DNA from: Hoyosella subflava DQS3-9A1
GTDB lineage: Bacteria > Actinomycetota > Actinomycetes > Mycobacteriales > Mycobacteriaceae
Length of the DNA: 64,000 nt
NCBI RefSeq assembly: GCF_000214175.1
Contig: NC_015564.1
Coordinates: 2,790,001-2,854,000 of the forward strand
Reading direction: 5' to 3'
In this document: piece after piece, positions 10,394 through 13,676 of the stretch
How positions within the stretch are numbered: the first letter of the stretch is position 1
Layout: every line of letters begins with the position of its first letter
Translations under genes and position numbers: made by a program
The notes under the pieces: generated by a model
What the model saw: the letters and a program-made list of their open reading frames with translations, nothing else
Told to the model about the DNA's origin: nothing
Databases searched by the model: none

Positions 10394-10975
10394 TCACGGC
10401 CTTCCCGCGTCGAGTACGGATTTGACGCACCCCGCAACGAGTTTGTCGCGGCTGATCGTCAGAGTGCCGTCGAGGTACGAAGCGTAGAGACTCGATAGGG
10501 CGCCGATGGCCGCGACCGCAGCAGTCCGCCTGTCGTCCACCTCCGCGTAAGCATCGAAACCGTCGGCGACCAGGTCGACAAATTCGGGGACGCGTGCAAG
10601 CCCTGCCCGTCCGAGTGCGGGTTCAATGAACGGGGCGAGCACAAGCACTCGCCCAGCGGCGGGGTGGTCGACGATCATTTCGGTAAATGCTTCGATCACG
10701 GCGTGGGCACGCGAGTTGAGATCGCCCTCAGCGTAGGTGTAGGCCTTCAGGATGACCCCGATCGCCTGGCTGGCGACGTGGTCGAACACGGCTCCGACAT
10801 AGGCGTCGCGGTCTGCGAAGGACTCGTAGAAATAGCGCTGAGTGAGTCCTGCCGCACTGCACACGGCACGCAGCGTCACCGCGGGGCCCTCTGGGTGTCC
10901 GAGCAGTTCGATGCCAGCGTCGAGCAGCGCTTCACGTCGCGCCTCCTGACGCTGTCGCATCAGTTCCGCTCGCAT
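10394..10975 (-). CDS. TetR-family transcriptional regulator
   Basis: A 193-residue TetR regulator. An N-terminal HTH (about residues 10-57, REALLDAGIELLG...GLTQRYFYESFADRDAYV) is followed by a helical ligand domain. It is divergent from the membrane-protein/dehydratase operon, and the 129-nt gap contains three inverted repeats (11019-11076). Autoregulation and repression of the operon at 11105-13676 are the natural inference. The ligand is unknown but may be the lipid or terpenoid substrate of that operon. Confidence 0.9.
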   Translation of the reverse strand: MRAELMRQRQEARREALLDAGIELLGHPEGPAVTLRAVCSAAGLTQRYFYESFADRDAYVGAVFDHVASQAIGVILKAYTYAEGDLNSRAHAVIEAFTEMIVDHPAAGRVLVLAPFIEPALGRAGLARVPEFVDLVADGFDAYAEVDDRRTAAVAAIGALSSLYASYLDGTLTISRDKLVAGCVKSVLDAGRP

Positions 10976-11018
10976 GACTCCTCCGTTCGCTTAATGATGA
11001 TGTGTGGCTCCTCACCAT

Positions 11019-11076
11019 TGACATCATACGGTGTCACTTTCTATTCTGACATCAAGCATTGTCATTTTTCAATGAC
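11019..11076. promoter_or_regulatory. TetR operator array (three inverted repeats)
   Basis: Two 18-bp elements of the same design, TGACATCATACGGTGTCA (11019-11036) and TGACATCAAGCATTGTCA (11047-11064), lie 28 bp apart centre to centre. They are followed by GTCATT-TTTC-AATGAC (11061-11076), with perfect 6-bp arms. They sit between the divergent TetR gene and the operon at 11105. Spacing of whole helical turns plus position make them probable TetR binding sites. Confidence 0.75.
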
Positions 11077-11104
11077 GCGGAACCGAGGCAGAAAGGGCTG
11101 TCCG

Positions 11105-11752
11105 ATGCTGTGCTGCGCTGCACTGATCTTCGTGATGGGCCTGTTCCGTGAGGCTTGGTTCCGGCTGCCCGGCACCACACGCCCAGAAGAACCGGGCTTC
11201 GCACCCCGCGCGTACCGGCCCGCACCTGGCGAGCCCCGGCCCAGGACCAGCGTCCCCACCAGCCCTGCTACTACGCCACCCACACGCCCCCGCGTTCCCC
11301 GAACCTCCGGGCGAGCACCTCGGCTCCGACTGGTCGCGACGGGTTTCGCGGTGGGCTCGGTCATCTATCTCCTCAGTTTGCAACTGTTGTTCGCGCTGGA
11401 TGCCGCACAGCGACTACCGGACGGCACCATCGGATGGGGTACACGCACGGTCGTGTTCCTTCTGATTGCGGTCGCCGCCGCCTGGATCGGCCGCCACTGG
11501 AAAGGCGCCCGCTCCGGCGATCTCCTCGTAAGCGCGCTTGCCGGGTCGGGTATCGCCTGGTGGATCCTCAGCTACGTGGACATGCACATGCTTAGGCTCA
11601 TCGACATCGCCCACGGCTCACTGGCCTGGGACCTCGTATTCCATGGAGTCGGCATTGCCCTCACCGGAGCAGCGCTCATCCTGTCTTATTCACCCGAACC
11701 CGCGCGCCGCTCTCAACATGCGCCACTCGAAGGGAGCCTCCGTGGCGTCTAA
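11105..11752 (+). CDS. Four-helix membrane protein, dehydratase operon
   Basis: About 215 residues. A Pro/Arg-rich, low-complexity segment (about 25-75) precedes four predicted transmembrane helices: LVATGFAVGSVIYLLSLQLL, TVVFLLIAVAAAWIG, LLVSALAGSGIAWWILSY and LVFHGVGIALTGAALILSY. The helix pattern and DMHMLRLIDIAHGS are faintly reminiscent of DUF2243, but I do not claim membership. The start at 11105 was chosen because an in-frame ATG at 11072 falls inside the operator array. The stop lies 11 nt inside the next gene, so the two are translationally coupled and probably work together, perhaps as a membrane partner of the dehydratase-like protein. Confidence 0.7.
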   Translation: MLCCAALIFVMGLFREAWFRLPGTTRPEEPGFAPRAYRPAPGEPRPRTSVPTSPATTPPTRPRVPRTSGRAPRLRLVATGFAVGSVIYLLSLQLLFALDAAQRLPDGTIGWGTRTVVFLLIAVAAAWIGRHWKGARSGDLLVSALAGSGIAWWILSYVDMHMLRLIDIAHGSLAWDLVFHGVGIALTGAALILSYSPEPARRSQHAPLEGSLRGV

Positions 11753-13676
11753 AGTTGTCGACCCATCCAACCGGGAGACCGCCGAATACTCGCCGGTGCC
11801 TCCAATCCCCGCGTTCGATCGGGTACACGGGCCCGGCACACGGTTCCTGGTTCGCCGCACGCTGCTCTACTTAGCCGCGTTCTGGGCTGTAGGCCTCGCA
11901 CTCGCCGCGCTGGACCTGTCCGACGGACTGACGGCGTTCGGGCTCGGGCTGCTCGTACCTGGTGGCGGATTCCTCTACACCGGGAACATCCTCCTCGCCG
12001 GTATTGCCGTGGTTGCGTTCCCGCTGGCGCTCGGGATCTGGTGGCTCATCGGGATTGTCCCGCTACCGCCTGCCGTTTGGCTCGGCGCGGCGATCCTTGC
12101 CGGCGCTGGATTGGGCGCAAACGAGACACAGGACTGGGCACGCTGGGGGGTCCCGGTGATTCTGGTGGCGGCGATCGTCCTCACCGTGGCATACCTGCAG
12201 ATTCGCTTTCGCATCCAGAGCGCTCGGGGCCGCCGCTTCAATGCGCAGATCGCTGCCGAGCAGCCCGTCCTCCCCGTCGCTGCTCCCACGCCAACGGTGC
12301 GCGAAGCCGGCGAGGAGGACCTGAAAACCCTTCGCTACGTGATGGACCTTGGGCTGCAGCCGGCCGACTCGTGGGACGGCTTTTTCTTCGTCCGCCCGGA
12401 ACAGTTCCGTGAGGGCGCGGTCCGCTACCAGCTCAACTTCGTTTCTTATACAGCGGCGATGTATCAGTACACCTGTGCGCCAGCCTTCACCGGTTACGCT
12501 GCTGAGGCCCAACGCAACATGATCGACAAGATGCTCCAGAAACCAGTGTGGAGCTACTGGTCACTCGAGCATCTGTGGGGCAACCTCCGCTGGAATCCCG
12601 ATCCCATCATCGACGACAACGTCATGTACTCCGGCTACCTCGGGTTGATGCTCGGCATGTACGAAACAATGACTGGAGATCGCCGGTACCACGAACCCGG
12701 CTGCCTCGAACTGCGGTGGAATGACACCACCATCTACCGGCACGACGCCGACACGATCACTGCGGCGCTCGTCGACAATTTCAGCCGCGCACGCCTTGGG
12801 CAGTTTCCATGCGAGCCGAACTGGATTTACCCCATGTGCAATACGTTCGGCATCAATTCGCTGCTTGTGTACGACCGCCTCGAAGGAACGAACCATGCGG
12901 AACCCGTCGTCGCGCAGGTTCGTGAAAGTTACGACAACGGTGATTTCTGCGAGCCGGACGGCCGACTCACCGCCGCTCGCTCTGAGTACTTCGGATTCCG
13001 CCACCCCATGGTCGGCAACATGGGCGACACCATCACCACCTACTTCCTCAACCCGATCGTGCCGGAAATCGGCCGCCGCACCTGGTGGCTCATGGGCAAG
13101 AATCATCTCGGCGCGGAAGGCAAGGGGCCTAAGCACCGTTCGTGGAATCTCATAGACCCCGGTAACTACGGCATCAATACTGACCGTTTCGTGCGCGCCA
13201 GCCTCGCAGCGAACGCGCGCGAGTACGGCGACGAATTCCACGCTCAGCAAATGGAACAGTCACTGGCCCATCGGATCGTCGAGAAGGACGGCGCCCGGCG
13301 CTACAAACGCCTCTCCGTGTGGGGAAACTTGTGGCTCGCCCTGGCGCGCTTCAGCCGGGAAGACGGCTTCCGCGGCTTCATCCAGGAGGGCATCCCCGAC
13401 GCGTGGCGACGCGGCCCAGTACTTGCCGACGCCGCCTATCCGGAGGTTCTCGTCGCTAAGGCCGTGAGCGACGGCACCAGCCTTGACCTCGTCTTACGTC
13501 CCGGCAACGGGCCCGTCCGCACAACTCTCGCGATAGAGCGCCTCACTCCAGGGCATGCCTACACCGTCACCGGAGCGCTATCGCCAGAACTGGCCGCTGA
13601 CGCTGAGGGACGTGCGCTCGTTGAGATCGTGCTGAACGACCGGCTCGAAGTGAGCATCACCCGCGCAGTTGAATGA
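11742..13676 (+). CDS. Membrane-anchored linalool dehydratase/isomerase-like protein
   Basis: A 644-residue protein. Residues about 25-160 contain four or five transmembrane helices (RTLLYLAAFWAVGLALAAL, then VVAFPLALGIWWLIGIV and GVPVILVAAIVLTVAYL). Residues about 190-570 match the linalool dehydratase/isomerase (Ldi, alpha/alpha barrel) family: NFVSYTAAMYQYTCAPAFTG, YWSLEHLWGNLRWNP, DDNVMYSGYLGLMLGMYE, and FPCEPNWIYPMCNTFG, whose two cysteines (Cys357, Cys366) keep the nine-residue spacing of the Ldi active-site pair. A beta-rich tail (about 570-644) follows. The GTG start has GAAGGGAG upstream and lies within the preceding gene. Likely a membrane-associated hydratase/dehydratase of an allylic or terpenoid alcohol. 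Substrate unknown. Confidence 0.82.
   Translation: MASKVVDPSNRETAEYSPVPPIPAFDRVHGPGTRFLVRRTLLYLAAFWAVGLALAALDLSDGLTAFGLGLLVPGGGFLYTGNILLAGIAVVAFPLALGIWWLIGIVPLPPAVWLGAAILAGAGLGANETQDWARWGVPVILVAAIVLTVAYLQIRFRIQSARGRRFNAQIAAEQPVLPVAAPTPTVREAGEEDLKTLRYVMDLGLQPADSWDGFFFVRPEQFREGAVRYQLNFVSYTAAMYQYTCAPAFTGYAAEAQRNMIDKMLQKPVWSYWSLEHLWGNLRWNPDPIIDDNVMYSGYLGLMLGMYETMTGDRRYHEPGCLELRWNDTTIYRHDADTITAALVDNFSRARLGQFPCEPNWIYPMCNTFGINSLLVYDRLEGTNHAEPVVAQVRESYDNGDFCEPDGRLTAARSEYFGFRHPMVGNMGDTITTYFLNPIVPEIGRRTWWLMGKNHLGAEGKGPKHRSWNLIDPGNYGINTDRFVRASLAANAREYGDEFHAQQMEQSLAHRIVEKDGARRYKRLSVWGNLWLALARFSREDGFRGFIQEGIPDAWRRGPVLADAAYPEVLVAKAVSDGTSLDLVLRPGNGPVRTTLAIERLTPGHAYTVTGALSPELAADAEGRALVEIVLNDRLEVSITRAVE

Follow-up and report, generated by a model that had tools for sequence, protein, structure and literature searches.

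What does a barrel of the linalool dehydratase/isomerase (Ldi) type do when it is fused to membrane helices and encoded beside a second membrane protein? The question is raised by a locus of Hoyosella subflava DQS3-9A1 within a stretch of 64,000 nucleotides (NC_015564.1, positions 2,790,001 to 2,854,000; hereafter the window). The gene is a member of the Ldi family of the type of Lis, the linalool isomerase of Thauera linaloolentis 47Lol, and not an enzyme of a new kind. The layout of Lis-type enzymes is already known. The new part is a conserved partner, a hydrophobic protein that begins with Met-x-Cys-Cys (M-x-C-C) and whose gene is genetically linked to the Lis-side branch of the family. 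The best explanation of the locus, to which we assign a probability of roughly 0.6, is a Lis-type isomerase that is anchored in the membrane, controlled by a TetR-type regulator and accompanied by a dedicated M-x-C-C protein.

Family, fold and active site of the enzyme

The initial annotation of the window had reported a 644-residue product, and the frame runs without interruption from its GTG codon to the stop (Table 1). The protein belongs to PF18566 (Ldi) in Pfam, with 319.5 bits against a cutoff of 26.1 (E value of 3.8e-95), and a phmmer search of the PDB up to an E value of 1 returned Ldi entries only (best, 4.5e-12). The fold was predicted with AlphaFold2 from four sequences, with a mean pLDDT (predicted local distance difference test) of 70 and a pTM (predicted template modeling score) of 0.70. 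Foldseek ranked Ldi first with this model (2.0e-8, compared with 0.02 for the next family). Superposition on the Ldi structure 5i3t with VIA-align extended over 324 residues, at 21% identity and a root mean square deviation of 3.4. As modeled, the enzyme thus has the alpha/alpha barrel of Ldi. A glycoside hydrolase or another alpha/alpha barrel, which the initial annotation had named as the alternative, is disfavored by sequence, since a profile of 22 relatives of the enzyme matched Ldi at 6.6e-52 and its best non-Ldi entry in the PDB at 0.18. It is disfavored by fold as well: the Z score was 28.9 for Ldi and 17.1 for the best non-Ldi structure, GH105, with the GH105, GH76 and epimerase rows at 14 to 17.

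Hydropathy and the model suggest about four membrane helices at the N-terminus, in agreement with the membrane fusion first proposed (modeled helices at residues 31-57, 61-71, 75-80, 83-103, 108-123 and 131-172). The basic stretch RFRIQSARGRR follows this anchor and suggests, by the positive-inside rule, that the barrel would face the cytosol. The cysteines of the enzyme are found at positions 245, 321, 357, 366 and 403, none of them near the region of Ldi Cys48, and Gln266 occupies the column of Ldi Cys101. The absence of the Cys48-Cys101 disulfide would fit a cytosolic barrel.

This layout is that of Lis (EC 5.4.4.4, ENO87364; Marmulla et al. 2016, PMC4791888), described there as a protein of 644 residues with four predicted N-terminal helices, a cytosolic Ldi domain and 20% identity to Ldi. 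The window enzyme, compared with Lis by this published description, shares the length, the four N-terminal helices and the Ldi-like domain that follows them. The initial annotation knew of no described function for such a protein, a statement that fails because the membrane-anchored Lis was already in print. According to the same account, Lis activity resides in the inner membrane, is activated by reductant and converts geraniol to both enantiomers of linalool. Lis is also reported there to differ from Ldi in dehydratase activity. When Lis was produced in Escherichia coli, the full-length protein reached the membrane and was inactive, and a truncated soluble form was inactive too.

The Ldi (LinD) of Castellaniella defragrans (EC 4.2.1.127; structures 5hlr, 5g1u and 5i3t) has the (alpha,alpha)6 barrel of PF18566 and the CEP-N6-CN cysteine pair in common with the window enzyme, but it is a soluble periplasmic protein without a membrane anchor, whereas hydrophobic helices lie within residues 31-158 of the window protein. 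The two cysteines, nine residues apart, to which the initial annotation had drawn attention sit in FPCEPNWIYPMCNTFG, and HMMER aligns them with Cys170 and Cys179 of Ldi, in CEPDNYFVQC. Residues C357, E358, P359, C366 and N367 are invariant in the 22 aligned sequences. Because residues 351-362 of the model have a pLDDT below 50, the geometry of the pocket around the cysteines stays outside its support.

To follow these features through the family, we used a survey of 61 Ldi-family genes in 59 loci (977,271 bases; loci are cited by L numbers). A quick tree placed 55 of the genes on the side of the window gene and six on the side of Ldi. The survey leaves out the short loci L005-L016, L032-L040 and L046-L078, most of which are contained in longer stretches, together with weak or broken matches (L027, L042-L045, L075 and G1059) and a second L082 fragment of 115 bits; L041 had only about 1.2 kb of flank on each side. 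C-E-P-N6-C is kept in 52 of the 55 window-side genes, the exceptions being L089, L110 and L113. On the Ldi side, L031 (Rhodococcus erythropolis pRSLBG43), L017 and L079-L081 carry PF18566 with CEPNCxFQxC. Divergent Ldi-type genes with CEPGLVFPFC or CEPGLNFVGC were seen in L024, L025 and L112.

A conserved M-x-C-C gene beside Lis-type enzymes

The second membrane protein of the initial annotation is encoded directly upstream of the enzyme, on the same strand. We set its start at MLCC, as in the Smaragdicoccus homologue, and its end overlaps the start of the enzyme gene by 11 bases. The protein consists of a hydrophobic N-terminal MLCC core, a FAPRAYRPAPGE motif and a helical domain with a weak likeness to DUF2243 (PF10002). 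Two members of the partner family scored 13.6 and 15.3 bits against a cutoff of 25, and the other eight proteins scanned with them gave no DUF2243 match. With scores below the Pfam cutoff, membership of the helical domain in DUF2243 was rejected, and on present evidence it is not a member of the DUF2243/Caa3_CtaG membrane families. An NCBIfam scan of the domain returned nothing credible, and a literature search for DUF2243 found no paper.

A tblastn search with the window partner (E value up to 0.005), in which no motif was imposed, found homologues directly upstream of the Ldi gene in L002, L018, L019, L020 and L022. All five begin with M-x-C-C, as does the query. In proteobacteria, M-x-C-C open reading frames (ORFs) lie directly downstream of the Ldi gene in L003, L028 and L029 and upstream in L039. 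Across the survey, an adjacent M-x-C-C ORF on the same strand accompanies 38 of the 55 window-side genes, a conservation that the initial annotation had not seen. None of the six Ldi-side genes has one, including the five listed above, most of which have genes of the alcohol dehydrogenase, aldehyde dehydrogenase and AMP-ligase families nearby. Six further window-side genes have an M-x-C-C ORF in their vicinity: it is adjacent but read as M-C-C in L084, some 6 kb downstream in L004, after the same run of genes, 1-1.4 kb upstream of gene 1 in L097 and of gene 2 in L111, on the opposite strand in L112 and about 14 kb away in L094.

The C-C pair is present in the survey by selection; the controls are the adjacency of other residue pairs and the motif-free tblastn set. 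Out of 43 hydrophobic M-x-C-C ORFs in the 977 kb, 39 adjoin Ldi genes. The corresponding share for all hydrophobic-start ORFs in the same DNA was 19% (563 of 2,936), and none of 59 other residue pairs seen at least 15 times exceeded 50%. Because the sample includes near-identical loci (L030/L109, L088/L090 and L092/L102), the counts lack independence, and a binomial statistic serves only as a guide.

Members of the M-x-C-C family are hydrophobic proteins of 36 to 265 residues, the lower figure being that of the shortest such ORF near an Ldi gene. In an 11-row alignment (A3), M1, C3, C4, F32, P34 and R38 were invariant; most rows outside the tblastn set had been chosen by motif. For nine of the 15 window-side Ldi proteins without an N-terminal helix in a hydropathy count, the accompanying M-x-C-C protein is a long form of 204-253 residues that itself contains helices, and in the window and in L002 an anchored enzyme and a long-form partner occur together. 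A long-form profile found matches in 21 of 401 genomes of the window's family, 16 at the N-terminal core and five at the helical part only. Fifteen of the 16 carry PF18566. The low yield among the 34 Ldi-containing genomes of the family (15 matched at the core) arises because the profile misses short forms. In the 16th genome (L123, 2755-3018), the 3,018-base contig ends within the M-x-C-C gene, and the Ldi gene that would be expected next was not detected in the assembly.

A ribosome-binding-like sequence precedes 26 of the 35 M-x-C-C ORFs checked. The ORFs of 36 and 38 residues are missing from the gene tables of the Rhodococcus opacus and Aureimonas plasmids, tables that are incomplete by their source's account. 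A literature search on Ldi relatives, an Ldi partner or PF18566, which excluded most subscription journals and bioRxiv, found none beyond Lis, and further relatives or a partner are likely absent from print. A search for the names of Ldi residues gave nothing useful.

Regulator, gene surroundings and spread

The divergent regulator gene that the initial annotation assigned to TetR exists. Members of its family are clustered with Ldi genes at 16 loci, that of the window among them. They are upstream and divergent in 14, downstream of Ldi in L021 and on the same strand in L091. Taken by itself, the regulator resembles TetR only weakly (TetR_N, 19.6 bits against a cutoff of 24; FasR, E value of 1.4e-5 and 25 bits against 330). 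What had been described as a conspicuous operator array amounts to two 18-bp palindromes of the form TGACA-N8-TGTCA in the 129-bp region between the regulator and partner genes. These are the only two in the 64 kb, where 0.06 would be expected. Operator 1 overlaps a promoter-like pair, which ends at operator 2. The palindrome was not found in ten other Ldi loci scanned.

Table 1. Features of the locus, in window coordinates
Feature	Position	Strand	Basis
Divergent TetR-like regulator, 193 aa	10394..10975	-	Weak profile matches; family common to other Ldi loci
Promoter-like pair, TTGACA-18-TATTCT	11018..11047	+	Consensus match only
Palindromic operator 1, TGACATCATACGGTGTCA	11019..11036	.	Palindrome scan
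Palindromic operator 2, TGACATCAAGCATTGTCA	11047..11064	.	Palindrome scan
M-x-C-C membrane partner, 215 aa	11105..11752	+	tblastn homologues; family survey
Membrane-anchored Ldi/Lis-like enzyme, 644 aa, GTG start	11742..13676	+	ORF; PF18566; best sequence and fold matches are Ldi structures
Predicted N-terminal membrane anchor, about residues 31-158, about four helices	11832..12215	+	Hydropathy and model
Tyr299, in place of Ldi catalytic His128	12636..12638	+	Alignment; residue list in PMC12455561
Cys357...Cys366 catalytic-type pair, CEPNWIYPMC	12810..12839	+	HMMER alignment to Ldi Cys170/Cys179

Within about 5 kb of the pair, Pfam identifies an amino-acid permease, a PucR-type regulator, an alpha/beta hydrolase, a DNA ligase, a methyltransferase and a histidine-kinase-like protein. 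An aldehyde dehydrogenase and an acyl-CoA dehydrogenase are encoded 9-11 kb from the enzyme gene, beside a class-III aminotransferase. The lis gene lies downstream of atuCFE with geoA at 7.6 kb (PMC4847356), whereas the window gene is not near atu or geo genes.

PF18566 was found in 11 of 397 genomes drawn from the window's order, in 34 of 401 from its family (five also in the order sample) and in 7 of 346 from its phylum (three also in the order sample). It occurred in 6 of 369 genomes from the class of G397, G397 included. The closest named relative found was that of Smaragdicoccus niigatensis (DSM 44881), with 63% identity and the same triad, at one of three loci from a pattern-limited scan. 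The window's genus was represented by three genomes; of the other two, one has a distinct, frameshifted-looking Ldi gene and the second has none. In L082, from this genus, the Ldi-type gene is divided between two reading frames and looks either broken or mis-sequenced, and no adjoining M-x-C-C gene was seen. A class-level search around a Nevskiales genome yielded no gene identifiable as Thauera Lis, and a 23S probe intended for betaproteobacteria matched none of 6 and none of 36 genomes.

Proposed function and competing explanations

In the explanation that we favor, the N-terminal helices would tether the Ldi barrel at the cytosolic face of the membrane, where the reduced Cys357/Cys366 pair could perform cofactor-free acid-base chemistry on an allylic alcohol dissolved in the membrane. 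Most likely, an isoprenoid or similar alcohol would undergo a 3,1-hydroxyl shift like that between linalool and geraniol. The cotranslated M-x-C-C protein would be a dedicated companion that the enzyme most likely needs either to assemble in the membrane (Ldi is pentameric) or to keep its active-site thiols reduced. In the presence of the alcohol, the regulator would release the two operators over the promoter. Of these elements, the analysis establishes the family, the layout, the conserved cysteines and the linkage of the M-x-C-C gene to this branch, whereas the reaction, the substrate, the topology, the partner's role and the regulator's action are proposals.

Several points weigh against this explanation. 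The proposed substrate is unproven, and the apparent closeness of the window enzyme to Lis rests on the text of the Lis paper, not on the Lis sequence. In the accessible part of the published account (PMC4791888), no partner gene is described for lis, which is reported to lie more than 150 bp from adjacent genes, hence no partner is shown there. The genes around the window pair are not terpene genes. By a hydropathy count, 15 of the 55 window-side Ldi proteins have no N-terminal membrane helix, and 11 of the 55 genes have no M-x-C-C ORF in the DNA covered (L024, L025, L082, L085, L103, L105, L113, L114, L115 at a contig end, L117 and L118). In a crude count over the first 40 codons of 14 M-x-C-C gene pairs, the third codon position was the most variable in 11, but amino-acid-changing differences exceeded silent ones in 12 of the 14. 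With no excess of silent changes in the short ORFs, the claim that they are coding rests on position, motif and homology. Finally, Ldi is described in PMC12455561 as having His128, Tyr44, Asp38, Cys179 and Cys170 in its active site. The catalytic His128 is replaced by Tyr299, and equivalents of Asp38 and Tyr44 could not be assigned in the profile alignment, which begins at Ldi residue 60 (Asp202 is about two residues off by eye).

The same chemistry could instead act on an allylic alcohol that is larger or otherwise different, for example a polyprenol, a sesquiterpenol or a phenylpropanoid alcohol, in a degradation or detoxification route; we regard this as possible, if doubtful. The case for it comes from other loci. 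A gene for an oxygenase-like protein of about 300 residues adjoins Ldi in 12 of them (L018, L023, L082, L091-L093, L095, L099, L100, L102, L104 and L106) and, by tblastn, in L021, which makes 13. The family is of the MpaB/Lcp type, and its profile matches trans-anethole oxygenase (8s1j) at 1.1e-29. Pfam covers it poorly, as single-member scans gave an MPAB_Lcp_cat match for two of five proteins and none for three. On plasmid pAU20b of Aureimonas sp. AU20 (L029, 7048-10197), a cis-prenyl diphosphate synthase, an Ldi-type membrane protein, a 38-residue M-x-C-C ORF and a DgkA-type kinase stand in a row, possibly a prenol-modifying cassette. In R. opacus, the Ldi/M-x-C-C pair lies among cytochrome P450, aldehyde dehydrogenase and alcohol dehydrogenase genes. 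On its plasmid pRop44186_a (L030, 9588-10531), a CtaG-family gene (PF09678, 3.1e-39) separates Ldi from a 36-residue M-x-C-C ORF, a hint at a link between the partner and metal or heme membrane proteins. The order is TonB receptor, Ldi, M-x-C-C and short-chain dehydrogenase/reductase in Novosphingobium. In Sinimarinibacterium it is Ldi, short-chain dehydrogenase/reductase, AMP ligase, flavin monooxygenase, a large protein and M-x-C-C. These companion genes favor the degradation of hydrophobic alkenes and alcohols, but none of the oxygenase, prenyl synthase, kinase, P450 or dehydrogenase genes adjoins the window gene, whose own neighbors give no such support. The MpaB-type oxygenase profile found no match in the window's own genome, a search that had no positive control there.

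A role of the M-x-C-C protein as a membrane-stress peptide, unrelated to the enzyme and linked to it only through the common promoter, is unlikely. The protein's strong variation in length and in the domain after the first 40 residues would agree with such a role, as would the 11 genes without an M-x-C-C ORF. The link to Ldi genes, however, holds in actinobacteria and proteobacteria alike, upstream in some and downstream in others, and M-x-C-C ORFs are nearly absent elsewhere in the same DNA.

Less probable again is a barrel devoid of Ldi chemistry that has taken on another role, for example binding or a different lyase reaction. The column of His128 holds Tyr in 19, Trp in 17 and Phe in 17 of the 55 window-side genes (two were not read), and Asp38 is unmatched. 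Tyr at this place need not mean lost chemistry, however, since it is found in four of the six Ldi-side genes as well (His in the other two, L031 and L041). The invariance of C-E-P and C-N in the 22 aligned sequences, the near-complete retention of C-E-P-N6-C and the reported activity of Lis, which has this layout, also argue against such a loss. Least probable is the Castellaniella reaction itself (myrcene, linalool and geraniol) at another cell location: the barrel and the cysteine pair are common to both enzymes, but His128 is absent, as is the disulfide cap that is essential in Ldi (PMC6600392), Lis, the described enzyme of this layout, differs from Ldi in dehydratase activity, and the gene of the set nearest to Ldi (L041; phmmer, 3.7e-69) falls on the opposite side of the quick tree from the window gene, on a very long branch.

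A membrane-anchored Lis-type isomerase with an M-x-C-C companion thus remains our preferred account of the locus. We infer that the partner is needed for activity and, tentatively, extend this to the whole branch: Lis-type enzymes might be two-component systems in which the M-x-C-C microprotein is an obligate subunit, assembling the enzyme in the membrane or passing electrons to the active-site thiols. The partner would then stand for a protein family that is new, widely distributed among actinobacteria and proteobacteria and hitherto overlooked, and its absence could be the reason why Lis alone was inactive in E. coli. Ldi-type enzymes form alkenes and rearrange alcohols without a cofactor, and they are in demand in the chemistry of isoprene, butadiene and fragrances. 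A 2018 review and a 2019 article still name Lis as the sole known relative of Ldi, in contrast to the 34 genomes with PF18566 in the window's family alone. An overlooked conserved partner could account for the inactivity of expressed Lis and make the entire branch accessible to assays.

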